Positions 1 to 21,509 of a stretch of 33,689 nt of DNA are shown one piece after another. The translations under genes were made by a program, and so were the position numbers. The notes beneath the pieces were generated by a model. It saw only the letters and a program-made list of their open reading frames with translations. It searched no databases and had not been told where the DNA came from. The DNA comes from Candidatus Gastranaerophilales bacterium (GTDB lineage Bacteria; Cyanobacteriota; Vampirovibrionia; Gastranaerophilales; Gastranaerophilaceae): contig CALUTH010000004.1 in assembly GCA_944323635.1 (NCBI GenBank), positions 1-33,689 of the forward strand, written 5' to 3'. Each line of letters begins with the position of its first letter. The stretch's first letter is position 1.

Positions 1-3000
1 TCGTCAAGTGTTAAGTTCCCGCCGCTTATCGTCAATGTCCCGTCCCAGGTGTCTGTTAAGCCATCCAAGGTGACATTGCCGCCTGTAATATTGAGTGTAG
101 AATCCGCTTCAATATTTACATCGACATCAGAACTTATTTGAGATGTTCCTGTAAGGTTTAATGTCGAATTATCAAGAGTCAGGCTGCCATCCTGCGCAAT
201 AAGGTTAGAGGCATCATCAGTTACCATATCTGTAAGGGTAAGATTTGAATTTTCATTATTCATTACAATCGTACCGCCCCAAGTATCCGCTGAATCTAAA
301 TTCAAATCAGCACCGGAGAGATAAAGCGTTGCCTCCTCTCCTATATTAAGTGCAACCGCCCCTGCAATAGAACCGTCGGTTAAAGACAATGATGTATTAC
401 CGGAAAGGATTAAATTTCCCTGCTCCGCAATCAATTCACCGACAGGAGAATTAAAATCAACAAGTTCAAGAGTACTGTTTGCAGTAGTCATCTCTATTCT
501 GCCCTGCCAGTTATCCGCGGTATCACCGCTGTCATTCAAAGTCACGCTTGCATCTTCAAGCGTTAGTATTGAACCGTCCGTGATATTAAGAATCGCCTCT
601 TCAACTATAGTTCCGCTCTCAATTACAACAGTTGAATTATCAGTAATTCCAAGTCTGTTATTTGAATTGTCGGTTGTAATCGCTATAGTATTCTGAGCGC
701 CGTTAGAGATATTTAATTCAGAATTATTATTCAAAGTAATACTGCCGCCGTTAACAGTTCCGGTCTGTGCATTAAACTTTGAATTATCCATTACAAGTTC
801 TGCATTGTTGTGAGAGTACGAATTTCCAAGTGTAATATCTTTAACGGTCAAACTTCCCGAGTTATCAATAGAGCCGTTAACCGTATCCTCAGAAGAAAGA
901 TAAACAGAACTTCCGGATGTAATTGTTAACTGCCCGTCAGCATCAAGTGTGACATCAATATTATCCGCAATGGATAAATCATCCAGGGTTAAGTTAGCAC
1001 CGTCAACATTCAAACCGCCTGCCGTAATTGAATCATTAGCGCCTAGCGTCATATCCTCAAGAATGCTGAGAAGGGCATCATCATCATTTTGAGTATACCC
1101 GCCGGTTTTATTTACTCCGTCAAATACAACGGTAGCACCTGTATTTACAAGACCACCGGCAAGAATATCTCCTGTATCAAGCACCAGATTTCCGCCCGAG
1201 ATTGATACGTTACCGGAGAAATCAACGGACGCCGCCGAATTTATATTGGTTCCTTCACCTAAATCAAGAGAGGTGCCGTCTGTTACACCTACATTATTCG
1301 CAGTCATATCAAGCGTATCAATTACAGCACTGTTGGATGCAGCGTTGTTAAAAACAATTCCTGACGAGTCCGAAAGATTAACTTCACCATTACCGGTTAT
1401 TGTACTGCCTTCATTTAATGTAAGTGTTGATGAATCAGATATATTCAATACTCCGCCTGTTTGGTTGTAAACAGAATCGGCAGATGTTGTTTTATCAAGC
1501 GCGAGGTTTACCGTCCCGCCATTATTAATACTGCCGAGCCAGTTATCATTGGAGTTAATATTTAAAACAGAAGTTTCATCAACATTAACTGCTGTATTTC
1601 TTGAAATAGACAAAGCAACATCCGATGCAATCTCCGCACCGTCTTCCATATTAAGCAGACTATAAAGATTGATTACCCCTGCAAGAAGTTCATCCGCGCC
1701 ACTTACGGAAAATTGAGAATAAATATTTGCGGTTCCGCCATTAACCGTAAAACTGCCAGTTCTGTCTATAGGAGCCATAATGTTAACGGTTCCGGCTCTT
1801 GTACCAATATCACCCGCCCAAATATCAGCGTCGTCAAGAGTCAAAGTTCCGCCAGCAACCTCTATAGACGACCCGTCTATAAGATTTATATTTGCATTTT
1901 CCCCCACAGAACCAGCAGATATAGTCAGAGATGCATTGTTTGAACTTGAACCTACATTTAAACTTCCCTCCGAAATTTCATCGCCTACAGAATTTAAATC
2001 AAAATTACCAGTTATCGTTGTTTCAGCTGACGCATTATTTTGAATATAAGAGCCTGTTTTAGAAACATTATCAATATTTAATATTGAATTATTTGTAATT
2101 GTACCTTCCCAAATATCATTATTATTAAGTTTCACAGTACCTGATGAAACATTTAAGCCGGCGCCGTTCGCGAGTTCAACAGCGGTTTCTCCATTTATCA
2201 ACGAAGAACCGTTAAGAGTTATGTTACCCGAATTAATATCTATACGGTTTGCGGTTTCATCTGTTTGTATTTCAAGGGTATTATCCGTTCCGGAGCTAAA
2301 CTCAATCAAAGATTCATCATTAAGATGTACCGCGCCGCTGACGGAAGAACCTGCATCCGTAATATGTAATTCTGAACCATACATATCCAGACGCCCGCCT
2401 GTTTGAATATATCCTGCGTTCAATATCCAGTCTTTAAGCGTTAATTGACCATCCCTTAATTCCAGAGTGCCGTCTACATTATCAGCTCCGGACATCGTTA
2501 ATTCGCCGCCGTCAATTATGAGTGAAGCATTTTCAAATACATTAACCGTAACAGCATCAGCAATTGTACCGTTAGAAAGTGTAAAATCTGATAATGTTCC
2601 ACCCTCATCACCAACATTTAAAGCACCTTCCGAAATACTATCCGATGCTCCGGAAAGTGTAAAACCTTCACCTGTTACATTAAGTTCTGAATTTACACCG
2701 GTTTGAACATAAGAAGAACCATCTTCTTTATTAACACTGTCCGCATTAACAACCCCGCCGGTATTATGTATAGAGCCCAGCCAATTATCATTAGCATCAA
2801 GTGAAAAATTGACCCCGTCTTCCACATTTATTAGAGAATTTTCTCCTATTGATACATTTGTACCGGAAGACACAGTTGATGAACCATCAAGTGTTAAAAT
2901 TGCATTGCCGATAAGATTCAAATTACCGCCGGTTGAATTTAACCCACCATTAGATGAAAGCCCGTCATAAATCAAGGTGCCGCCTGTCTGTTCAATAAGC

Positions 3001-6000
3001 CCCGCCCAGGTATCACCGGAATTCATAGTTACGGATCCGCCTGTAATATCTAACTCTGAACCTGATATAAGATTAACATTAGCACCTGCAGCAATTGTAC
3101 CGTTAGATACGCCAACCGTAGCAACGTTACTTCCGCTGCCAATATTAAACGTTCCGCCGGAAATATTATCAGATGCATTATTCAGATTAAAATCAGCACC
3201 GGTTACTGTCGTAACAGCTCCTGACGCAGTTTGTATTAAAGCGCCGGTTTCCGATTTTGAAATATTATCAATATAAAGTCTGCCATAATTAGTCCCGAGA
3301 TTAATATTTCCCGACCACGTATCCCCCTGATTCATATAAAGATTTGAGAGATTAGAAGATGAAGACCCGCCAAGGTTAATTGTTGAACCGGCGTCAATTC
3401 GGACAGTATCACCCGCGGCTATCGTTCCGCGTGTATGTGTAAATCCGGAATTATTTTTAACAGCAAAACTGTCACCGCGCCCTGATGTGCTCATGACAGC
3501 AGCATTATCGGACTGCCCGTTTGCTATAGTTAAAGACGAAATATCATCAGCATTACCAAAAGTAACAGTTCCGCCGGTAATAGCAGAACCTTCATTCACA
3601 GTCAAGTCTGCACCATTTCTCAAATTTAGGGTTCCCGCTGATTGTGTATAAGTAGATGTTGCCGTTGTAGATTTTTCCATACCGGAAATATTAAGAGTTC
3701 CTCCGGCAAGCTCTACATCGCCATTCCAAACATCGTTTGTACCCTCTGCACCATTAGCGTTAAATGTAACACCACCTTCGTCAGCATCATTATTAGATAT
3801 ATATATCTTCCCGCCTTCATCCAATGTTAACTCAACATCTTCTGCTATAAATGACGAGGCATTAGTAAAATTTAATATACCGGAATGAACATTAACATTA
3901 CCTGATGATGCCTGCAATCTTCCGCCGGATGTCAAATCACTGTAATCAAATAAGCCGTCGCCATTTAGCGTTACTACCGTATTATCAGCCCAGGTATCAC
4001 CTTCATTAAAATAGACATCACCGTCAGTAATTGATAAGGTTGCACTGCCGGTCAGATTAAACTCGGTTGCGGCATTAATATAAGAATCACCATCTACATT
4101 TAATGTACCGCGGCTGCTTGTCCTATATACATTAAGAGTTCCGCCATCTGCATAAATATTGCCGTTTGTAGTCAAATATGTATAACTAAGGGTACCGTCT
4201 GTAAGATAAATATCACCTCTCCAGGAATCACCATTATTTATAGCCGCAGTTCCGCCTGTTATATGAAGTTCAGAAGTATCTTCTATAGTAGTTCTCAAGT
4301 TAGCTTCAATAATTGATCCGGCAGCTAAATTAAGCTTAGCATTTTGCGCCAATGTTAAATCTCCGCGGCTTCCTCTTAATATTCCATTATCAAGATTTGT
4401 ATTTGAAACAGTAAGATTACCGTTATTTAAAGATATTTGACCATCCCAGCTATCTCCGGACGCACCGTCAATATTAACCACGCCATCCCGAATATCTAAT
4501 ACCGAGCCTTCTTCAATATTGACCAGAGCAGCAGTATCAATACTCCCCGCAGCCATAGTTAATGTAGAATTGTCCAGTATATTCAGAGAACTATCACTGC
4601 CGTCGTTTGCATAGAGAGTCATGTTGTTTGTACTTAATCCGTTAGCAATCGTTAAGTTTCCGCCATTTTGCAAATATCCTATCCCGCCGGTAATATAGGA
4701 TTCTGCCGTATCAAGAACAAGTGAAGAATTATCAACGTACAAACTTCCGCCGGTTTGAATATAGGTCTTGTCAGCAGTAGTAGTCGCATTTAAACCATCC
4801 GTTAAAGTAAGCGAACCGCTTGCTAAATTAATCGCACCTGACCACGTATCAGTATTATTAAGAGATACATTTGCCCCTCTGATGTTTAAATCTGCATCAT
4901 AATCAACAGTAACAGATGCTTCTTTGTTAATAGTACCGCCAACGAGCGAAAGGGTCGCACCCTCATAAACAATTAAATTATTCAAAGAAGTATCAGTTGT
5001 TGTAATATTAGCAGTGTTTGCAGTTCCATTATCAAATGTAAGCATTGAATTATTGCTTAAATTAATATTTCCCTGCTCAACATAAGAATCTGCAGTATTT
5101 AATTGAAGAGAAGAACCATTAAGATTAAGAGTTCCGCCGGTTTGAACAAAGGTTTTATCAACGTTTGATTCATGGTAGCCGTCCTTTAGATTTAAAGTAC
5201 CATTTGTAAGTGTTACATGCCCGTTCCAGTTGTCTTCACCGCTAATCGTTATATTAGAATTGGAGCCGTTTACATTTAATGTTGAACCTGTTTCAATATT
5301 TACATTTGCAGCCTCATTAATAATCCCGCCAATAGAAGTTAACGTAGAATTTCCGGTTATTTGCACTCTGTTAGCAGTAGTGTCATTGGCATTAATTGTT
5401 GCAGTATTTTCAACACCATTGTTAAAGTCGAGGTTGGATGAATTTGTTAAATTAACCGTACCGCTTGTTACAGCAGAACCGGAATTAAGTGTAATATCAG
5501 AAGAGTCAATATTTAGAGTGCCGCCGGATTGATTAAAGGTTTTATTTGCATCAGTAGAAACAGCATTTGAGCCGTTAAAATCGTTTATATTAATACTGCC
5601 TGAATTAAGGCTAAGCCCGCCGTTCCAATTATCGGTTGCACTATCCAGAATTACATCCGCACCGGAGACCGAAAGGGTTGAACCGCTATCTATTGAAATA
5701 TTTGTATTTTCAGCAATAGAACCACCTAAAACATCGTATTGTGAAGAATTTTGTATTCTAATGTTATTTACTGTATCATCCGTAGAGATAACATCTGTTG
5801 TATTTGCCATACCATTAGAAATCGTCAAATCAGAGGTATTTGTAAGATTAAGATTACCACCATCCAGTATATCAGTATCGCTGCTAAGAGTAAGCTCTGT
5901 ATCATTAAGCTCTAAATACCCGCCGGTCTGCGCAAATCCGGAATTTTTCTGAATCTCTTTTAATATAAGATTTCCGCTTAAAAGATTTAAACTACCGGTT

Positions 6001-8192
6001 AATGTATCAGTCGCAGAATCTATAGTAACATTCGCATCTCCGCCATTAATATCAAGGTTTCCGTTTATGGTTAAGTCAGCATTTTCCGTAACCGTTCCGC
6101 CATTTAAGGTTAATGTACTGCCGCTTTCAACCGTTAAACTAGAAGCGGATTCTGCATCCGTATTAACACTGGCATAATTATTTTGGTTATTTTGAAAGAC
6201 CAGATTACTGTCATTAGACAGGTTAATTTCGCCACCTTGAGTAAAGGAACCTTCATTTAAAGTCAAAGAAGTGTTTTCAAGGTTTAAAACAGCATTACCA
6301 TCATTAGCAGCCTGTTGATAAGTCTTATTAGTATCTGTTACAGAAGTTATGTCTTTCAATGTTAGATAGCCGTCAGATATAAGATTTCCTTCCCAGACAT
6401 CAGTATCTTCAAGTGTTACATAAGCCCCGTCATATATCTGAAAGGTTGAGCCGCTCTCTACAGAAACCGTAGTTTGCTCATTTATCAATCCGCCGACAAT
6501 AGAAAATGCGGAAGAATTGGAAATATTAATAGCATTACTGCTAAGATCCGTATTGAGTATTGAACCGTTTGAAAGCCCGTTTTCAAAATTCAAGGTACTT
6601 CCGTTATTAAGATTCACATTACCGCCGGTAATAAATGCATCAGCAGTATCAAAAGTAATTTTAGAAGCATCAATATTTGATGTACCTAAATATTGAGCAT
6701 ACACCTTACCGTCAGATGCAACTGCTGTCTGATTTTTTAAACTCAGTGTCCCGTTTGACATGCTTACAGTCCCGCTCCAGGCATCATTGTCATCAATTGA
6801 CGCAGTTGCAGAATTAGAATTTAAAGAAAATGTAGAACCGCTATCTATAGTAAGTTCGGCTGTCTCGTTAATATCTCCGCCGGACATTTCAAATGTAGAA
6901 TTGCCGGTAATATCAATTGTATTATTAGTAGTATCAGTTGTGATAGAAGCAACATTTGCCTGTCCGTTATTAAAAGTTACCCCAGAGGCATTCGTCAAAT
7001 TCACAATTCCGTCAGAAAATACAGAATTTTCATTATTTAAAGATACATTTGAAGCATCCAGATTAATTGTACCGCCTGCTAAATTAACACTAACCGTATC
7101 ATTTGTATTAAAATTTTTATTTAAAATATTTGCAGTTCCGCCGGTAACATTTAAAGACCCCAGATAACTATCGTTATCATTTATATTTAACACAGAACCT
7201 GAACCGGAAACATTTACACCTGCCCCCTCCTCCACATTCAGAACAGCATCAGCAGCAATATTTCCGCCGGACAAACCGAGGGTAGAAGAGGAACCTACAT
7301 TAACTGTATCACCAGTACCTGCATTAACACCGGTAGTACTAAGTTTACCGCTTTCAATATTTAGAGTAGAATTACCGTCAAGATTAATATTGCCGCCTGT
7401 AAGTTCTGAATTAGTATTAACAGTAAATTCCGAAGAAGATAAATTTAAATTACCTGAGCTTTGTGTATAGCTGATAGGATTATAATCTACATTTTCAAGG
7501 TTAATATTCCCGCCGCTGAGTGATAGTCCGCCCTGAATATTATCCTGCGCATCCACATACAGGGTACCTGCCGAAACATTAATAGTAGAACCGGCTGCAG
7601 AATTAATAAGAACTTCTGAGGCAACACCGGAGGACGCTGCAAGCTGGAGAGTACCGCCGGTTACTTCAATAGTTCCGCCGGTCGCATTAAGGACAAAAGC
7701 ATTTTCACCCTCTGCACGATTAACGTACAGTATCCCGGATTCCAAATTTATAGTATTGTTTAACGGTGCAATAAAAGAATCTGCAGTATCAAGATAAAGT
7801 TCTCCGCCGGTAATATTAATAACAGAATTATTCCTTAAAGTAAGATTAACCGCCTCTGCAATACTTGAACCGGACATAAGTGTCAGAGTAGTAGGTCTTG
7901 AACCGGCTCCTACCGAAAAACTGATATTTCCGCCTGTCGCCTGCAGTATACCATTTCCAACACCTGTACCCTGCGCCCTAATATTAATGGTACCGCCCTG
8001 CAATATCAACACATCATTATTATTAATATTCCAGTCATGAGAACTTCCGTCATAAGTAACATTACCTGAAGTTGTATTTACAGTCGCGGTACCGCTTGTC
8101 ACGGTCGTCGTTTCCGCAGCACAGGAAGCAAATGGCAGCCCCAACGCCGCCACAGCAGCCGCTAATATTAACAATTGCTTTGGCTTATTCAT
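1..8192 (-). CDS. Giant secreted repeat protein, probably beta-helical passenger (partial, C-terminus outside window)
   Basis: The frame is open from the ATG at 8192-8190 to the window edge, at least 2,730 codons; I read every codon in this frame and found no stop. An in-frame TAG lies directly before the ATG. The N-terminus starts MNKPKQLLILAAAVAALG, a short basic segment and a hydrophobic core, then FASCAAE, so it is exported; signal peptidase I is likelier than lipidation because Phe sits at -3 of the Cys. The rest is rich in Asn, Thr, Ser and Gly, with short strand-turn units such as GGxLxLxxSxxxV and GSTxNI. A D-x-W-x-G motif recurs at irregular steps of about 75-135 residues (Trp codons at 45, 279, 507, 1539, 1818, 2109, 2781, 3006, 3315 and further), often followed by a KTFxQTGG-like phrase. 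This is typical of beta-solenoid adhesins or autotransporter passengers. The anchor or translocator domain would lie beyond position 1. Function is inferred from architecture only. Confidence 0.85.
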   Translation of the reverse strand, partial: MNKPKQLLILAAAVAALGLPFASCAAETTTVTSGTATVNTTSGNVTYDGSSHDWNINNNDVLILQGGTINIRAQGTGVGNGILQATGGNISFSVGAGSRPTTLTLMSGSSIAEAVNLTLRNNSVINITGGELYLDTADSFIAPLNNTINLESGILYVNRAEGENAFVLNATGGTIEVTGGTLQLAASSGVASEVLINSAAGSTINVSAGTLYVDAQDNIQGGLSLSGGNINLENVDYNPISYTQSSGNLNLSSSEFTVNTNSELTGGNINLDGNSTLNIESGKLSTTGVNAGTGDTVNVGSSSTLGLSGGNIAADAVLNVEEGAGVNVSGSGSVLNINDNDSYLGSLNVTGGTANILNKNFNTNDTVSVNLAGGTINLDASNVSLNNENSVFSDGIVNLTNASGVTFNNGQANVASITTDTTNNTIDITGNSTFEMSGGDINETAELTIDSGSTFSLNSNSATASIDDNDAWSGTVSMSNGTLSLKNQTAVASDGKVYAQYLGTSNIDASKITFDTADAFITGGNVNLNNGSTLNFENGLSNGSILNTDLSSNAINISNSSAFSIVGGLINEQTTVSVESGSTFQIYDGAYVTLEDTDVWEGNLISDGYLTLKDITSVTDTNKTYQQAANDGNAVLNLENTSLTLNEGSFTQGGEINLSNDSNLVFQNNQNNYASVNTDAESASSLTVESGSTLTLNGGTVTENADLTINGNLDINGGDANVTIDSATDTLTGSLNLLSGNLILKEIQKNSGFAQTGGYLELNDTELTLSSDTDILDGGNLNLTNTSDLTISNGMANTTDVISTDDTVNNIRIQNSSQYDVLGGSIAENTNISIDSGSTLSVSGADVILDSATDNWNGGLSLNSGSININDFNGSNAVSTDANKTFNQSGGTLNIDSSDITLNSGSAVTSGTVNLTNSSNLDFNNGVENTATINANDTTANRVQITGNSTLTSIGGIINEAANVNIETGSTLNVNGSNSNITISGEDNWNGHVTLTNGTLNLKDGYHESNVDKTFVQTGGTLNLNGSSLQLNTADSYVEQGNINLSNNSMLTFDNGTANTANITTTDTSLNNLIVYEGATLSLVGGTINKEASVTVDYDADLNIRGANVSLNNTDTWSGAINLASGSLTLTDGLNATTTADKTYIQTGGSLYVDNSSLVLDTAESYITGGIGYLQNGGNLTIANGLSTNNMTLYANDGSDSSLNILDNSTLTMAAGSIDTAALVNIEEGSVLDIRDGVVNIDGASGDSWDGQISLNNGNLTVSNTNLDNGILRGSRGDLTLAQNAKLNLAAGSIIEANLRTTIEDTSELHITGGTAAINNGDSWRGDIYLTDGTLSYTYLTTNGNIYADGGTLNVYRTSSRGTLNVDGDSYINAATEFNLTGSATLSITDGDVYFNEGDTWADNTVVTLNGDGLFDYSDLTSGGRLQASSGNVNVHSGILNFTNASSFIAEDVELTLDEGGKIYISNNDADEGGVTFNANGAEGTNDVWNGDVELAGGTLNISGMEKSTTATSTYTQSAGTLNLRNGADLTVNEGSAITGGTVTFGNADDISSLTIANGQSDNAAVMSTSGRGDSFAVKNNSGFTHTRGTIAAGDTVRIDAGSTINLGGSSSSNLSNLYMNQGDTWSGNINLGTNYGRLYIDNISKSETGALIQTASGAVTTVTGADFNLNNASDNISGGTFNIGSGSNVATVGVSNGTIAAGANVNLISGSELDITGGSVTMNSGDTWAGLIEQTGGTLIYDGLSSNGGLNSTGGNLNLIGNAILTLDGSSTVSSGTNVSIGENSLINVEDGVNFSLDANDNWLGSIHNTGGVVNADSVNKEDGSSYVQTGVNSELNVTGEGFTLSGASDSISEGALNVGDEGGTLSDFTLSNGTIADAVTVNVFENASLIIDGGELTMSGADNVDGTLELRDGQLTLKDWILNAGYIQTGGRLDMYGSELHITDAGSSVSGAVHLNDESLIEFSSGTDNTLEIQTDETANRIDINSGNITLNGSSLINGETAVELANGAGLNVSSGTVKLNNNDIWEGTITNNSILNIDNVSKTGSYIQNNASAETTITGNFDLNSVGDEISEGSLNVGSSSNNASLTISAGSVGENANINLIDGSSIEVAGGTLTLDDADIWAGDIGTRAGTVNIMAPIDRTGSFTVNGGTANIYSQFSVSGADELLAGVINLYSLLNMEDGAEIASDVALSISRNTAVNVDETSVLNINSNDNWLGSINNGGTVNLALDKTTSADSVYNQTGGVLNISDSSTLTLNEGSTITGNGEVNLSDSSGIVFNNAASNSAVIDTLDMTANNVGVTDGTSLDLGEGTNINSAASVDFSGNVSISGGNLVLDTGDILAGGLVNTGATVVFDGVNKTGGYTQNDDDALLSILEDMTLGANDSITAGGLNVDGANLTLDDLSIADNIDVTLDADGQLTITSGSSVYLSSEDTVNGSIDNSGSLTVKDITLGNSYSHNNAELVMDNSKFNAQTGTVNGGSITLNNNSELNISNGAQNTIAITTDNSNNRLGITDNSTVVIESGTIVEEAILNITDGSILTLEDASVTLNDSGDTADNWQGRIEMTTANSTLELVDFNSPVGELIAEQGNLILSGNTSLSLTDGSIAGAVALNIGEEATLYLSGADLNLDSADTWGGTIVMNNENSNLTLTDMVTDDASNLIAQDGSLTLDNSTLNLTGTSQISSDVDVNIEADSTLNITGGNVTLDGLTDTWDGTLTISGGNLTLD

Positions 8193-8501: not shown

Positions 8502-9605
8502 ATGAGTACATCTATACTAAGCAGTGTATTTAACGACCTATATGAAGAATACGGCTGGATTGAAACTACATTTGCGCCGTCAGTTCAGGCTGCTTCCGAT
8601 GAGTTTTTCTTTGAAGGACTAAAGTTTAAGCTCATATCTGTCAGTCAGAATATGAATATCCTGTCACAAAACGAAACATTTTTTGTTACAAAAATTAAAA
8701 TAAATAAAAAAAGCGATATTTTTATAAGAATCTCCCAGGAAACAATAAATGTAATTCTTGATAAAGTTCTCGGGAATGCAAACAAAAACTTTGAACTTAC
8801 AGAAGTTACTGAACTTGAAGCGCGAATAATAACTGCATTCAATGATTTTTTATATGAAAAACTTACCCCGAATTTTAGCATTGATAAAGAGAAAAAATAC
8901 ACGGAAATTCTGCATTTAACATTTTTAGTAAAGAATGAGCTTTCGGAAGACGCTGCGAAATTTATCATATCCCTGCCGCGTGACATCCTTAATCCTCCCA
9001 AAAGAGAAGAAAAGCCCGCAAGAATTAATGAGAACTTTTTAGCAAATGCCCTTGTGGAAGTAAATTTTATTCTTGGAAGTACACGCTTCCCGCTTGCAGA
9101 TATAAAACGGCTGGATATAGGAGATATTGTCGTTTGTGATCACAGCAAAGCAAACAATATGCACCTTATTGTAGGAAACAAAATTATTAGAGATGTAAAA
9201 ATTAAACCGGATATGAAACTCGTAATATCACTTGATAATAGTGGAGGAAATGAAATGAGCGAAGAGAATACAAACCTTTGGGACAGTATTCAGGTTGATA
9301 TGACCGCGGTATTTGAAAAAGTTAAAATACCCCTCGGAGAACTGAAAAATATAGAAGAAGGAATTGTTGTTGATATAAGTTCCGTCTACGATAATAAAGT
9401 TTACCTGCAGGTAGGCGGCAAAACCGTGGCTTACGGAGATCTTGTTATAATAAACGACAGATACGGAGTAAAAATTAACGGAATTAATCCGCAGGCAGAA
9501 GGCAACGCAGAAACAGGAGAATCAGAATATCCTGATATTCCTGCGGATGGAGAAGAAGGTGCAAAAGAAGAGTTTGATTACAGCGACTTTGACCCTGACA
9601 GTTAA
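8502..9605 (+). CDS. fliN: FliM/FliN-type flagellar switch protein with two SpoA domains (SctQ-like architecture)
   Basis: This 367-residue protein should form part of the cytoplasmic C-ring, which sets motor direction and docks export substrates. Residues about 40-160 look like the FliM/SctQ middle domain (FIRISQETINVILDKVLG, then a LTEVTELEARI helix). Two SpoA (FliMN C-terminal) domains follow: about 182-245 (VEVNFILGSTRFPLADIKRL) and about 261-330 (QVDMTAVFEKVKIPLGELKN). An acidic tail ends the protein. Canonical FliM and FliN carry one SpoA each, so this is a FliM-FliN fusion in effect, the same layout as injectisome SctQ. No EIDALL-type CheY-binding N-terminus is visible. It heads the fliO-P-Q-R cluster, and flagellin lies beside the cluster, so a flagellar role is favoured. 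An internal start at codon 252 probably also yields the second SpoA domain alone. Confidence 0.8.
   Translation: MSTSILSSVFNDLYEEYGWIETTFAPSVQAASDEFFFEGLKFKLISVSQNMNILSQNETFFVTKIKINKKSDIFIRISQETINVILDKVLGNANKNFELTEVTELEARIITAFNDFLYEKLTPNFSIDKEKKYTEILHLTFLVKNELSEDAAKFIISLPRDILNPPKREEKPARINENFLANALVEVNFILGSTRFPLADIKRLDIGDIVVCDHSKANNMHLIVGNKIIRDVKIKPDMKLVISLDNSGGNEMSEENTNLWDSIQVDMTAVFEKVKIPLGELKNIEEGIVVDISSVYDNKVYLQVGGKTVAYGDLVIINDRYGVKINGINPQAEGNAETGESEYPDIPADGEEGAKEEFDYSDFDPDS
9255..9605 (+). CDS. Predicted internally initiated FliN-like protein (second SpoA domain alone)
   Basis: Inside the switch gene a GGAGG (9243-9247) lies exactly 7 nt before an in-frame ATG at 9255, codon 252, which falls in the linker between the two SpoA domains. 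Starting here gives 116 residues beginning MSEENTNLWDS, containing the complete second SpoA domain and the acidic tail, which is a normal FliN length. In injectisomes SctQ-type genes (SpaO, YscQ) are known to make a C-terminal SpoA protein from an internal start, and the short form joins the full-length one in the sorting platform. The SD strength, spacing and domain boundary all agree here. That it is actually translated is inference. Confidence 0.55.
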   Translation: MSEENTNLWDSIQVDMTAVFEKVKIPLGELKNIEEGIVVDISSVYDNKVYLQVGGKTVAYGDLVIINDRYGVKINGINPQAEGNAETGESEYPDIPADGEEGAKEEFDYSDFDPDS

Positions 9606-9639
9606 TGACTTTTAAAAATTGAGAGTTAAATAATAAATT

Positions 9640-10035
9640 ATGAATATAGGCTACCTTACAAATTTTATAGTATATGCTTTTGCAATGTCCGGAGTGATGC
9701 TTATTGCGGTAAGCATTTACAAGAAAGTATGCGGTCTGCCAAACAACAAGCAGACAGGGAAACTGCTCAGCGTTCAGGACAAGTTAGCAATCGCACCGCG
9801 GAAAACTTTATACGTAGTAAAAGCGGGAGAAGAGTATTTTCTGGTTGCAGGAGATACCGAGCGTACAACAATGCTCTCAAAATTAGAATTAAACAAATCT
9901 TTATCGAGCGGAGAAGCTGTAAAGCATTTAAGCAATTTAAAAAATGAGGATATTCATATAACAAACAAGCGGATACTTCAAAAAATTAATGAACGTCTGG
10001 AGCAAAAGGAAGAAGAACAATGGAAAATGTACTAA
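9640..10035 (+). CDS. fliO: Flagellar biosynthesis protein FliO
   Basis: A 131-residue protein with one transmembrane helix near the N-terminus (about 6-28), then a small soluble domain with the FliO pattern of short strands (DKLAIAPRKTLYVVKAGEEY FLVAG). FliO helps assemble the FliP ring of the export gate. Identification rests on this topology and on its place directly before fliP, the order seen in many flagellar operons. Its end overlaps the fliP start by 16 nt, suggesting translational coupling. No strong Shine-Dalgarno precedes its ATG. The charged tail (EQKEEEQWK) doubles as the upstream region of fliP. Confidence 0.75.
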   Translation: MNIGYLTNFIVYAFAMSGVMLIAVSIYKKVCGLPNNKQTGKLLSVQDKLAIAPRKTLYVVKAGEEYFLVAGDTERTTMLSKLELNKSLSSGEAVKHLSNLKNEDIHITNKRILQKINERLEQKEEEQWKMY

Positions 10036-10658
10036 AAGACTTAAGTCCTGTTATACAACTATTAATTGTAATGGCATCATTCTCGCTGCTGCCGTTCATT
10101 TTTTGCTGTATGACCTCTTTTTTAAGATTTATTATTGTTTTTTCACTCCTCAAATCTGCAATGGGAGTTCAGGTTCCACCCGCGCTTGCAACTGTCGGAT
10201 TGTGTTTGATCCTGACGTTTTACACAATGGGCGGAGTTTTTCAAAAAATGTATGAAATGGGCTCAGTACCATACCAGAAAAACCAGAATATTGTTATGGC
10301 TATAAATGAAGGTTCAAAACCGCTTAAAGAATTTATGATGAAACAGACAAGGGAAAGCGATTTAGCCTTCTTTGTAGAATTGAAACGTAAAGAGCCGCCC
10401 AAAACACCGGAAGAAATCACCATCTGGGAAGTTGCTCCGGCTTATATTTTAAGCGAATTAAAAACCGCATTTGAAATCGGTTTTATAATTTACGTTCCGT
10501 TTATTGTTCTTGACCTTGTTGTTGCAAACATACTTCTTGCACTTGGTATGATGATGCTGTCACCGACAATTATTTCCCTTCCGTTTAAACTCCTTATATT
10601 TATCGCAGTAGACGGCTGGGCGTTAATTGTTCAAGGCTTGGTACAAAGTTATAATTAA
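10020..10658 (+). CDS. fliP: Flagellar export gate protein FliP
   Basis: FliP (SctR in injectisomes) forms the core of the export gate in the inner membrane as FliP5-FliQ4-FliR1. Diagnostic stretches are TSFLRFIIVFSLLKSAMG near residues 37-54 and, in the C-terminal half, YILSELKTAFEIGF, PFIVLDLVVANILLALGMMM and SPTIISLPFKLLIF. Four hydrophobic segments are visible. At 212 residues it lacks the cleavable signal peptide of enterobacterial FliP and starts directly before the first helix, which is closer to the length of SctR. It overlaps fliO and is followed after 9 nt by the tandem fliQ. AAGGAAG lies just before its start. Confidence 0.93.
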   Translation: MENVLKDLSPVIQLLIVMASFSLLPFIFCCMTSFLRFIIVFSLLKSAMGVQVPPALATVGLCLILTFYTMGGVFQKMYEMGSVPYQKNQNIVMAINEGSKPLKEFMMKQTRESDLAFFVELKRKEPPKTPEEITIWEVAPAYILSELKTAFEIGFIIYVPFIVLDLVVANILLALGMMMLSPTIISLPFKLLIFIAVDGWALIVQGLVQSYN

Positions 10659-10667
10659 GGGGGCGCT

Positions 10668-11513
10668 ATGGAAATACTTGCAAATTTTTTGGCTAAAGGT
10701 TTTATGGTAATGCTCTCTATATCTATGCCTGTTGTACTTACAGCCGCTGCCGTAGGTCTTATAATCGGGGTTCTTCAAGCAGTAACACAGATACAGGAGC
10801 AAACAATTGTTGCGGCGCCTAAAATACTACTTGTATTTATGGTTATATTAATCGGCGGATACACCTTCACCAATAGTTTAACAAACAATTTTCAAGAAGG
10901 AGCGAACCTTGCGTTCAATGTTCTGCCAAAAAATGAAACTTATGTTCTGCCTGCAGATTATCATAAATATTCCCCGCCTCTAACTCTTGTAAATGATGTA
11001 TCAAAGCGAACATTACCGGATGTAAGACACTTGATGGAATATATGGGAAGAGCAATATTATCAATGCTCGCAATTTCTATGCCTGCTGTTATAACCGCCG
11101 CAGCAGTAGGGCTAGTCATCGGGATTGTACAAGCAGTAACACAGGTTCAGGAACAAACAATCGTTGCGGCACCTAAAATATTTATGGTGTTTCTTGTTAT
11201 AATTTTACTTGGATTTGGTTTTATTAAAATCCTTGAAAACACTTTCAGGCAAGGATATGTACTGGCGTTTGAAGTTGCACCTGCAGAGGGAAGTTTTGCG
11301 CTGCCGGCAGACTATTACCGGTATACAACTCCTTTTGAAGGAGAAATGACAGATTCATTCAAAAATAAGCCGACATTAAATGAGATAATGAAAAACCCGG
11401 GCAAAGTTCCTTTTATCGACAGGCAGCAAAAAATCAAATATGATGCAAACAGAATGCCGCCGATGCCTAAACCAAATTTTGTAGAAACAAATAAAATTAT
11501 GGGGTGGGAATAG
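10668..11513 (+). CDS. fliQ: Tandem double FliQ flagellar export gate protein
   Basis: FliQ is normally about 89 residues with two transmembrane helices. This 281-residue protein holds two FliQ copies in one frame. Copy 1 (about 1-105) and copy 2 (about 119-223) align without gaps at an exact offset of 118: SMPVVLTAAAVGLIIG matches SMPAVITAAAVGLVIG, LQAVTQIQEQTIVAAPKI matches VQAVTQVQEQTIVAAPKI, and LPADYHKY matches LPADYYRY. The conserved QAVTQ-x-QEQT hairpin is that of FliQ/SctS. A hydrophilic Pro- and Met-containing tail of about 58 residues follows copy 2. Both copies look intact, with four helices in all. The gene has a strong SD (AAGGGGG) and its stop codon directly abuts the next ATG. 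Assignment to FliQ is firm; the effect of the fusion on gate stoichiometry is unknown. Confidence 0.92.
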   Translation: MEILANFLAKGFMVMLSISMPVVLTAAAVGLIIGVLQAVTQIQEQTIVAAPKILLVFMVILIGGYTFTNSLTNNFQEGANLAFNVLPKNETYVLPADYHKYSPPLTLVNDVSKRTLPDVRHLMEYMGRAILSMLAISMPAVITAAAVGLVIGIVQAVTQVQEQTIVAAPKIFMVFLVIILLGFGFIKILENTFRQGYVLAFEVAPAEGSFALPADYYRYTTPFEGEMTDSFKNKPTLNEIMKNPGKVPFIDRQQKIKYDANRMPPMPKPNFVETNKIMGWE

Positions 11514-11933
11514 ATGAAAAAATTAATTTTAATATGCACTTTGCTTACAGCACCAGCAGCTTTCGGACTTGAAAATTATGTAATAACCTCTAATAATACT
11601 ATTACGAATATAGAAAACAACACTCCAGACATAATAGAAGTTCATGAAATGACAACCATAATGAATGAAAAAAATACTGTAATAGTTGAATGCAAAAAAG
11701 AGGGAAAAGGAAAATTTTATTTAACATCAGACGGCAAAAAAAGTGAATTTGATATGAATATATCAAAGAATAAAACAGAGCTGAAAACAAGCGGTAATTA
11801 TACTTGTTATATACTTGATACTGCACCTGGAGTGTTTGAACTTGATCCGCCGCCTGCGGCAGCAACTAAAAAAAGAATATCGCCCAAAGGTCTGACATCT
11901 ATTGAAATTAAAATAGGGGATGAAGACAAATAA
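11514..11933 (+). CDS. Small secreted or periplasmic protein of unknown function in the fli cluster
   Basis: 139 residues with a clear signal peptide (MKKLILICTLLTAPAAFG, cleavage likely near residue 18), followed by a hydrophilic, beta-rich region (IIEVHEMTTIMNEKNTVIVE) and a short Pro/Ala stretch (DPPPAAATKKR). I do not recognise a family. The middle vaguely recalls the short beta-domains at the N-terminus of secretin or pilus proteins, but not enough to name one. Its ATG follows the stop of the double fliQ with no gap, and its stop codon overlaps the fliR start (TAATG), so it is locked into the export-gate operon. That suggests a job at the periplasmic side of the export apparatus or rod; this is inference. 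Confidence 0.75.
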   Translation: MKKLILICTLLTAPAAFGLENYVITSNNTITNIENNTPDIIEVHEMTTIMNEKNTVIVECKKEGKGKFYLTSDGKKSEFDMNISKNKTELKTSGNYTCYILDTAPGVFELDPPPAAATKKRISPKGLTSIEIKIGDEDK

Positions 11934-12712
11934 TGGAACAAATCATAAGCGGTATATCAACCTTATTTCCACAATTTAACGCTTATTTTTTTGCAGGCGT
12001 TGTAGTTTTTGCAAGGCTTATCGGATTTGTGCGTTTTGCACCTGTTTTCCACAGAACAGATGTAATATCTTACGTAAAAATAGGGTTTGTATTCCTGTTT
12101 ACAATTATGCTTACCCCCCTTCTTAACCCGCCGCCTGTGCCAAGCGGCACATCGCTTATGCTGCTTGTAATCCTTAACATAACCTGCGGGGCGATAATCG
12201 GGTACACGGCAAGACTTCTTATTCTTGCAGTTGAATCCGCAGGGGACATGATTAATACCCAGATGGGTTTGTCATCCGCCATGGTTATGGACCCGTCAAC
12301 AAACAGCCAAACCGCATTATTAAGCAATATCCTTACTCTGTTTGGTACTATACTGTTCATTCATATCGGCGGATTATACTGGATGTTTAAGGCTTTAATA
12401 AGAAGTTTTGAAATATTCCCGATATATGCAAGCAGCATCCCGCTCAATCAGATAATAAACATGGATTACCTTATTACAATGACATCTAATGTTCTCTATA
12501 TTGGTCTACAACTGGCAGCGCCTATTCTTCTTGCCACTCTCGGGCAAGATATTATACTCGGTATAATATCAAGAACAGCACCGCAGGTAAACGTATTCCA
12601 ATTAAGCTTCCTTTTTAAGCCCGTATTCGGGGCTGCTATAATGATCTGGATTTTACCCATGCTTGTAAACATAATCACTGACTTCTTTACTTCACATGCC
12701 GCAATTTTTTAA
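11933..12712 (+). CDS. fliR: Flagellar export gate protein FliR
   Basis: 259 residues with about six hydrophobic segments. The family signatures include FFAGVVVFARLIGFVRFAPVF at the N-terminus (helix 1 with the conserved FxRxxGFxxxxPxF pattern), the cytoplasmic-loop region ESAGDMINTQMGLSSAMVMD (conserved G-x-x-I-x-x-Q-x-G-x-x-x-x-x-x-D) and the QLAAPILLATLGQDIILGII region. FliR is the single-copy component that caps the FliP-FliQ assembly. It overlaps the preceding small secreted gene by one base and ends 24 nt before a bidirectional terminator shared with the convergent flagellin gene. No FlhB fusion or flhB gene follows here. Confidence 0.92.
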   Translation: MEQIISGISTLFPQFNAYFFAGVVVFARLIGFVRFAPVFHRTDVISYVKIGFVFLFTIMLTPLLNPPPVPSGTSLMLLVILNITCGAIIGYTARLLILAVESAGDMINTQMGLSSAMVMDPSTNSQTALLSNILTLFGTILFIHIGGLYWMFKALIRSFEIFPIYASSIPLNQIINMDYLITMTSNVLYIGLQLAAPILLATLGQDIILGIISRTAPQVNVFQLSFLFKPVFGAAIMIWILPMLVNIITDFFTSHAAIF

Positions 12713-19042: not shown

Positions 19043-19618
19043 ATGAAGCTATCAGTTATTGTTTTACTTGCTATTGCGGCATTAATTATTTTTGCGTTCT
19101 ACGGGATGTATGTTTCGCTTATTCAAAAGAAAAACAAAGTAATGGAAGCTTTTTCGAGTATCAGCGTACAGCTTAAAAAGAGATATGATTTGATTCCTAA
19201 TATTCTTACCCTTGCCGGCAAGTTTATGGAACACGAAAAATCCTTAATGGAAGAGGTTACAAAATTAAGAACGCAGGCAATATCACTGCCTGAGGATATT
19301 AATAACGTCGGTAAAAAACTGGAACTTGACTCTCAAATCAGAAGCAAGATGGGGCAAATAATGGTTGCGGTTGAGAACTACCCGCAATTAAAGTCCGACC
19401 AGACAATGGTTCATGCAATGCAAACTTATAACGAAGTTGAAGAACACATTGCTGCTGCAAGAAGATTCTATAACTCTGCCGTGCTTGAACTTAACAATGC
19501 GGTAGAAATCTTCCCGTCCTCGATTGTTGCGGGCATGGTAGGCGTTCACCGTCAGGAATTTTTCAAGGTGGATGAGGCTGAAACCAAACCCGTAAATGCG
19601 GCAAATTACTTAAAATAA
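19043..19618 (+). CDS. lemA: LemA family protein
   Basis: 191 residues with an N-terminal membrane helix (about 4-24) and a long helical domain. Family signatures are YDLIPNILTLAGKFMEHEK (the conserved R-x-D-L-I-P-N-L segment; the Arg-Tyr-Asp precedes it) and, near the end, EEHIAAARRFYNSAVLELNN and FPSSIVA. LemA is a membrane protein of unknown biochemical role, with the helical part probably outside the cytoplasm. The two DUF3137 genes follow directly, an association seen in other bacteria, and probably form one transcription unit with it. Confidence 0.93.
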   Translation: MKLSVIVLLAIAALIIFAFYGMYVSLIQKKNKVMEAFSSISVQLKKRYDLIPNILTLAGKFMEHEKSLMEEVTKLRTQAISLPEDINNVGKKLELDSQIRSKMGQIMVAVENYPQLKSDQTMVHAMQTYNEVEEHIAAARRFYNSAVLELNNAVEIFPSSIVAGMVGVHRQEFFKVDEAETKPVNAANYLK

Positions 19619-19633
19619 TATTGAGGGGAATAA

Positions 19634-20590
19634 ATGGACAAAAAAGGTACTACCCAAAAAGAATTTTACGGTTTATTCCGTAAAAACTGCCTGCCGCTCC
19701 TTGGTAAATATGAAACAGAAAGAAAGAATAAGTTTTTAATCTTTGCAATAACGGGCGGTATCAGCGGGGCTGCTTTTATAATCAGTTTACTGCTTTATTT
19801 TGTAATTAGTCCTATTGAGTTTTATCAGCAGATTTTTATTATTTCGGGCGCCTGTACTGCAGTTATACTTACTATTGCCCAAATAACCGGAAAAGCTTTT
19901 GAACGAAAAATTAAGGCGGAAGTAATGCCGGTATTTTGCAAATGCCTGGGCGATTTCCAGTGGAACCCGTTGTTTGGTATTAACTCTCCACTATTTGCAC
20001 AAGCAGGTGTTATTCCCCGAAAATATGACAAGGAAGAACATGATGATATTTTTAAGGGAACTTACAAAGATGTAAGTATTGAAATTAATGAAGTCTGCTA
20101 CAAAGACATAAGAATAACATACGATAGTAAAGGGCGGCGGAGCAGGAAAGAATACACACTGTTTGACGGCGTTGTTGCAGAACTCGGAATGAATAAGGAT
20201 TTTAAGGCTCATACGGTTGTCGCGGCTGACACTTTACTGCACGGTGCACCGGTAAGCGGTTTAAGACATACAACACTGGAAGATGTAACGTTTGAAAAAA
20301 TGTTTGATGTCTTTACAAACGATGAAGTTGAAGCGCGGTATTTGCTTACGCCTACGTTCATGGAACGGCTTGTCAAGGTGAGAAAAGCATTTAAATGTGA
20401 CAAACTCTCATGCGCGTTTTATAGGGATAAACTGTTTATCTCTATAGATACCAGAAAAGATATGTTTGTCCTGGGCTCTCTTACAAAGCCTGCGGATGAC
20501 GAAAAACAGTTCTTCCAAATGTTTGAAGAAATTACTTCCATCATTGAACTTATTGACCAGCTTAAACTAGATCAGAAAATAGGGTTGTAA
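19634..20590 (+). CDS. DUF3137 membrane protein, copy 1
   Basis: 318 residues. Two transmembrane helices (about 30-55 and 63-85) separated by a short loop, then a large cytosolic domain. Typical of DUF3137 are the segment IMPVFCK/MPVFCKCLGDFQW after the helices, DDIFKGTYKDVSIEINEV, and the C-terminal FTNDEVEARYLLTPTFMERL, where FxTNDEVEAR is strongly conserved. Function is unknown. It has a GAGGGG SD, follows lemA by 15 nt and is followed after 1 nt by a paralogue. Compared with copy 2 it carries an extra strand pair around residues 155-178 (SKGRRSRKEY). Confidence 0.85.
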   Translation: MDKKGTTQKEFYGLFRKNCLPLLGKYETERKNKFLIFAITGGISGAAFIISLLLYFVISPIEFYQQIFIISGACTAVILTIAQITGKAFERKIKAEVMPVFCKCLGDFQWNPLFGINSPLFAQAGVIPRKYDKEEHDDIFKGTYKDVSIEINEVCYKDIRITYDSKGRRSRKEYTLFDGVVAELGMNKDFKAHTVVAADTLLHGAPVSGLRHTTLEDVTFEKMFDVFTNDEVEARYLLTPTFMERLVKVRKAFKCDKLSCAFYRDKLFISIDTRKDMFVLGSLTKPADDEKQFFQMFEEITSIIELIDQLKLDQKIGL

Positions 20591-20591
20591 T

Positions 20592-21509
20592 ATGAGTAGT
20601 AGAAAAGAATTTAACGAAATGTTTTATAAAACTTGTAAACCTTTGCTTACAGAATTTGAGGAGCAGCGGATGAAAATATTTTTTGCTTATAAAATAAGAG
20701 CAACCATTTTAGGGATAATTCTTTTTTGTTTGCTATGCCTATTTCTTTATGAGATTGCAATACAACAGCCACGAGGTTCTATCTTTTTAGTTATAATTAT
20801 AGCTGCAATTATGTTGGGTGACTATTACAAACAAAAAAAGAATTTTGAAACTAAGATAAAACATAAAATCATGCCTGTATTCTGCAATGCGCTCGGTGAT
20901 TTCCAATGGTCGTCGGGAAATATCGTAAACTACGATTTATTTGTCAATACAGGTATTGTTCCAAAGAACTGGTACAGAGCACAAAGTGATGATATTTTTA
21001 CAGGAAAGCACAACGATGTTTCAATAGAGATTGCAGAAGTAACCTACTGGGAAAAGGGTGACAAAAACAACTATGTCACTTTTCAGGGAGCAGTTGTTCT
21101 CCTTGATATGAACAAAATCTTTCACGGGCACACACTCGTAACTTCTGACACGGCTCTTCACCTTTCTCCGATAAACGGATTAAAACATACAATCCTTGAG
21201 GACAGCAGATTTGAAAAAATATTTGACGTTTTTACAAATGATGAAGTTGAAGCAAGGTATTTGCTTACACCTACTTTTATGGAGCGCCTAACTAAAATTA
21301 AAAAAACTTTTATGGCAGCCCAAATATCCTGCGCATTCTATATGAATAAACTGTTTATTTCAATTAACACCCGAAAAGATATGTTTTCCCTTGGAGCAAT
21401 AAATAAACCGGTAGATGATTACAGGCAATTTCTCCAGATATATACGGAAATCACTTCCATTATTGAACTTATTGACCAGCTTAAACTGGATCAGAAAATA
21501 GGGTTGTAA
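20592..21509 (+). CDS. DUF3137 membrane protein, copy 2
   Basis: 305 residues with the same architecture as the upstream gene: a two-helix membrane anchor (about 30-85), then the DUF3137 domain with MPVFCNALGDFQW, DDIFTGKHNDVSIEIAEV and FTNDEVEARYLLTPTFMERL. The two proteins differ in the helices and middle but are almost identical at the C-terminus (IIELIDQLKLDQKIGL in both), where the DNA of the last 41 bases differs by one base. This suggests recent duplication or gene conversion of the 3' end. A heteromeric pair working with LemA is plausible but not shown. Confidence 0.85.
   Translation: MSSRKEFNEMFYKTCKPLLTEFEEQRMKIFFAYKIRATILGIILFCLLCLFLYEIAIQQPRGSIFLVIIIAAIMLGDYYKQKKNFETKIKHKIMPVFCNALGDFQWSSGNIVNYDLFVNTGIVPKNWYRAQSDDIFTGKHNDVSIEIAEVTYWEKGDKNNYVTFQGAVVLLDMNKIFHGHTLVTSDTALHLSPINGLKHTILEDSRFEKIFDVFTNDEVEARYLLTPTFMERLTKIKKTFMAAQISCAFYMNKLFISINTRKDMFSLGAINKPVDDYRQFLQIYTEITSIIELIDQLKLDQKIGL

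Follow-up and report, generated by a model that had tools for sequence, protein, structure and literature searches.

A bacterium of the order Gastranaerophilales encodes two FliQ domains fused in frame into a single chain of 281 residues, here called FliQQ. The distribution of the export genes across the order places this protein in a second, order-wide export system derived from the flagellum (system A), and on balance we favor a role for FliQQ as a natural covalent FliQ dimer in the inner-membrane gate of that system, not in the flagellar gate. The window, the whole stretch of 33,689 nucleotides that was analyzed, holds the double gene within an operon for an export gate (Table 1).

Two FliQ Domains in One Reading Frame

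The reading frame is open throughout, and its ATG start has a good ribosome-binding site (aagggggc) upstream. The Pfam family Bac_export_3 (PF01313) matches the 281-residue protein twice (4.4e-35 for the whole protein), and the halves, searched separately, each exceed the curated cut-off of 25 bits for this family (1.5e-18 and 5.0e-18; 67.7 and 66.0 bits). Comparison of FliQQ with itself peaks at an offset of 118, where 55 of 106 residues are identical without a gap (runner-up offset: 15), and the same offset is the top self-match in all six of the fused genus members. LPADY is present in each half, and 58 residues remain after the second repeat; the coordinates, period, repeated phrase and tail reported in an earlier note made from the sequence alone are all correct by reading frame, Pfam match and self-comparison.

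Each half resembles FliQ/SctS (PF01313, TIGR01402) in having two hydrophobic helices, the turn QAVTQxQEQTI...PKI and the glutamate and lysine of the salt bridge, and the gene order fliP-fliQ-fliR is likewise shared. Known FliQ proteins, however, consist of a single domain of about 89 residues, whereas FliQQ carries two copies per chain and a conserved C-terminal tail. An AlphaFold monomer model reached a pLDDT of 44.6, too weak for a structure search; helices in this low-confidence model lie at 2-40/50-83 and 119-159/164-200. Between species, the FliQ cores show dS values of ~1 to >2 (often saturated) and dN values of 0.005-0.13, and both halves are under strong purifying selection. The dN of the linker exceeds that of the cores, making it the least conserved part of the protein.

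Table 1. The fliQQ gene, its parts and the neighboring genes of the operon (positions in the window).
Feature	Position	Strand	Basis
SctQ/FliM-FliN-like C-ring protein, two SpoA-type stretches	8502..9605	+	
fliO	9640..10035	+	PF04347, 3.9e-8
fliP of second export gate	10020..10658	+	
fliQQ, fused double FliQ, 281 aa	10668..11513	+	Pfam, self-comparison
FliQ copy 1 core, residues 1-85, hairpin turn QAVTQIQEQTIVAAPKI, E44/K52	10668..10922	+	Pfam, alignment
Linker, residues 86-118, LPADYHKY repeat and variable hydrophilic stretch	10923..11021	+	
FliQ copy 2 core, residues 119-203, hairpin turn QAVTQVQEQTIVAAPKI, E162/K170	11022..11276	+	Pfam, alignment
C-terminal tail, residues 204-281; conserved in order-wide single-FliQ relatives	11277..11510	+	
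Small secreted protein, signal peptide and beta domain, between fliQ and fliR	11514..11933	+	
fliR of same (second) export gate	11933..12712	+	

The operon combines features of two kinds of machine: a C-ring protein of the two-SpoA, SctQ type, as in injectisomes, and a FliO encoded with fliP, as in the flagellar export apparatus. The C-ring protein contains two FliMN_C stretches and a SpaO_YscQ match (161-326) under the curated cut-off. The small secreted protein is conserved in much of the order, and its relatives give a weak match to the Pilus-formation N-domain (PF13629); a PDB search with the predicted beta domain of this 139-residue protein gave no significant match. Elsewhere in the window, positions 1-8192 of the reverse strand hold a repetitive open reading frame of >2730 residues that contains numerous NLTGGxL-type repeats, is truncated where the contig stops and probably encodes a surface adhesin or autotransporter, and positions 19043-21509 encode a LemA-like protein followed by two tandem membrane-protein paralogs.

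Probable Packing of the Fused Chain in the Gate

Solved gates have the composition FliP5-FliQ4-FliR1, and a fifth FliQ, in P. savastanoi, sits in the FlhB site (PMC7064499); the proposal that fused dimers could furnish the known four-FliQ gate is compatible with these structures. The earlier note also raised the alternative that the fusion could fix the order of subunits at the ends of the spiral. Salmonella FliQ residues E46 and K54 form a salt bridge between neighboring FliQ subunits, and alanine changes there nearly abolish motility (PMC8239009). The pairs E44/K52 and E162/K170 of FliQQ align with these residues and are kept in all six species, and the turn motif QAVTQxQEQTI-AAPKI is invariant and intact in both halves; the retention of these features in each half suggests that both probably pack in the gate. 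The two hairpins would lie side by side in neighboring FliQ sites of the P5Q4R1 spiral, and since a two-helix hairpin has its N- and C-termini at the same end, the 33-residue linker could join them without crossing the membrane. Two FliQQ chains per gate would give four hairpins and would reduce the C-terminal tails from four to two; such pairing would favor an even FliQ count and disfavor an unpaired fifth FliQ at the position required by FlhB.

The chain might instead be cleaved within the linker, or translation of copy 2 might also begin at Met123, in which case the gate would use separate FliQ subunits and the fusion would have no structural role. The variability of the linker is in keeping with cleavage, and Met123, conserved without exception in the six species, would yield a product of 159 residues, like the single FliQ of relatives; however, no ribosome-binding site precedes Met123 in any of the six, whereas the true start has one in every case, and synonymous sites are unconstrained at 113-140, unlike codons 1-14. 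The start at Met123 was rejected on these two grounds, and we regard separate subunits, by whichever route, as unlikely.

Less probable again is that one half only occupies a FliQ site, the other having acquired a new role (on the FlhB side, for example, or in FlhA binding), with four FliQQ chains present. An unusual share of near-invariant positions is changed in both halves (9/63 and 12/63, against 20/339 for FliP, FliR, and SctQ, which the same operon encodes), as might be expected if one of them had been reassigned; yet the turn motif and the salt-bridge residues are intact in both, and with the two copies also having stems of similar length in the FliQ tree (0.83 and 0.93), neither half looks released from its ancestral job. 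The additional drift of the halves could reflect either positional specialization or relaxed constraint after fusion. As an extension of the covalent-dimer reading, which we prefer, we tentatively raise the possibility that the gate of this non-rotating machine contains two covalent FliQ pairs, each with its halves specialized for alternating positions of the spiral, the count being fixed at four and the tails halved; we hold this with less than even confidence.

A Second Export System Beside the Flagellum

The same genome carries a canonical cluster, FliP-FliQ(92 residues)-FliR-FlhB-FlhA, on contig C72. Apart from FliQQ, the genome encodes no FliQ but the one in that cluster, and FliQQ must therefore supply system A alone unless the two sets mix. 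Among the matches listed for 286 genomes of the order, for which counts are approximate, FliG_C accompanies 115 of 116 occurrences of the C72-type FliQ and is found without it in three genomes, and 54 of the 57 flagellin genomes have this FliQ. The window-type FliQ is present in nearly all 286 genomes, ~167 of them without FliG_C, and does not show the co-occurrence with the rotor domain FliG_C and with flagellin that characterizes a flagellar component; being kept without FliG_C, the gate encoded in the window serves a system independent of the flagellar rotor. The reading of FliQQ as the FliQ of the flagellum is not supported: of the two sets, the one whose distribution follows FliG_C and flagellin is the canonical C72 cluster.

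Two FlhB genes are found where both sets occur and usually one where only the window type does. Putative further components of system A are encoded away from the window: contig C15 has FliE, FliF, a FliG-like protein in which the torque domain is not detectable, FliH and a full FlhA, and contig C2 has an FlhB gene adjoining a sigma factor gene. These pieces were assigned to system A by conserved presence and 2:1 gene counts, not by lying in one locus (loci of the system: window 8502-12712, L117, L158). In several genera a sigma-70 region 4 gene (L158:13053-13730; L137, L138, L141) adjoins the system-A flhB, and may control the system. A third FlhA homolog of 489 residues (L118:11044-12513; genome G000, contig C37), comprising the cytoplasmic domain only (FHIPEP 321-656), is common to the seven genomes of the genus.

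Partial gene sets of non-motile Gastranaerophilales have earlier been read as partial or lost flagella (PMC4040986, PMC3787301). By extension, system A would be the decayed remnant of a flagellum, and FliQQ a neutral curiosity of an operon on its way to loss; this is highly improbable in view of the near-universal retention of the window-type FliQ, including in the many genomes that lack FliG_C, and of the strong purifying selection on FliQQ.

Distribution and Origin of the Double Gene

Of the seven genomes of the genus, six contain this fusion, at 84-98% protein identity; their MAG assemblies are separate and come mostly from differently named projects. The idea that a single fliQ was doubled in silico by assembly or binning might draw on the window genome being a MAG in 154 contigs and on one genus genome (G004) being without the fliQQ locus, but it has practically no chance of being correct and was rejected, as the 118-residue tandem is shared by six independent loci from several assembly projects, its halves share just 59-64% DNA identity, and most synonymous sites vary between the species. 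In genome G004 the FlhA of system A and two genes for FlhB are retained, so the absence of fliQ there is likely an assembly gap. The earlier reading of a genuine double FliQ, and not an assembly duplication, is thus upheld by the six shared fusions and the near-saturation of synonymous sites.

The search of Gastranaerophilales for long FliQ proteins that the earlier note had proposed yielded six doubles, all in this one genus, and no double FliQ was found outside the genus among the sequences examined, which covered the order and sampled the phylum. Elsewhere in the order the direct ortholog, encoded in the same operon, always has one FliQ domain, in contrast to the two of FliQQ, within ~162 residues (>90 examined). 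The tail, YTTPFExEMxDKFKNxPTxNEIMKNPGKVPFID..., is complete in these single-FliQ relatives, and the LPADY region is present in them as well; both therefore predate the fusion, so that the tandem repeats an already extended FliQ, and the linker phrase and the tail are accordingly not novelties of the fusion. The linker probably represents a shortened form of the tail of copy 1.

Several candidates were discarded. Open frames of 200-287 residues elsewhere in the class proved to be single FliQ with Pro-rich tails or frame read-through, and a match in genome G065 over query residues 10-279 was made up of overlapping matches to one 163-residue gene. An adjacent fliQ pair that could have been the source of the fusion was not found among the relatives searched. 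The fliP-fliQ gaps of genus g15 were considered for remnants of a lost first fliQ, and contain ORF6N/KilA-N-like genes or short repeats instead; in this genus, insertions of ORF6N/KilA-N-like genes or repeat arrays split the operon at the fliP-fliQ junction (L020:968-1473, L043:1984-2552, L033:1046-1494). Members of sister family f8, at class level (L149-L155, L157), encode one FliQ per chain, extended at the C-terminus by some 120-170 residues rich in proline.

In a FliQ tree of 110 columns, each copy forms a solid clade and the deep order is unresolved; the two copies do not group in the free tree, and a single clade for both is not rejected (AU p 0.45). Four departures from the order consensus at near-invariant positions (C22, I29, V33, A48) are common to both halves, with a probability of 0.058 for chance overlap. 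These shared departures and the unrejected single clade suggest a single duplication along the branch leading to the genus. With the fusion confined to the genus and the orthologs in the rest of the order single, one origin on that branch, by in-frame tandem duplication, is most likely: codon 118 of copy 1 would have been joined in frame to codon 1 of copy 2, with removal of the distal tail of copy 1.

Comparison with Known Fusions and Implications

We found no report of a double FliQ in the open-access papers searched, in agreement with the earlier statement that none is known to have been described. The same gate nevertheless offers a precedent in FliR, a natural FliP-FliQ-like fusion in which a FliQ-like hairpin is joined to another subunit, and FliR models match copy 2 of FliQQ weakly in profile searches; FliR is an ancient and universal hetero-fusion, whereas FliQQ is a recent homo-fusion of one genus. 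Two gate subunits are also fused in the Clostridium FliR-FlhB protein (NCBIfam PRK12772; PMC7064499), which, unlike FliQQ, joins different subunits that are each present once per gate.

FliQQ is relevant to a question of stoichiometry that reaches beyond this genus. FliQ detaches in detergent, and for this reason the number of FliQ subunits in a functional gate, four or five, is debated. A natural covalent FliQ pair is a ready-made test of this number and supports an even one, and, as a construct unable to lose single FliQ subunits, FliQQ could help to settle the copy number. For the Gastranaerophilales of the gut, the partial flagellar genes previously ascribed to loss of the flagellum include those of a second export machine, which genomes without the rotor gene keep intact.
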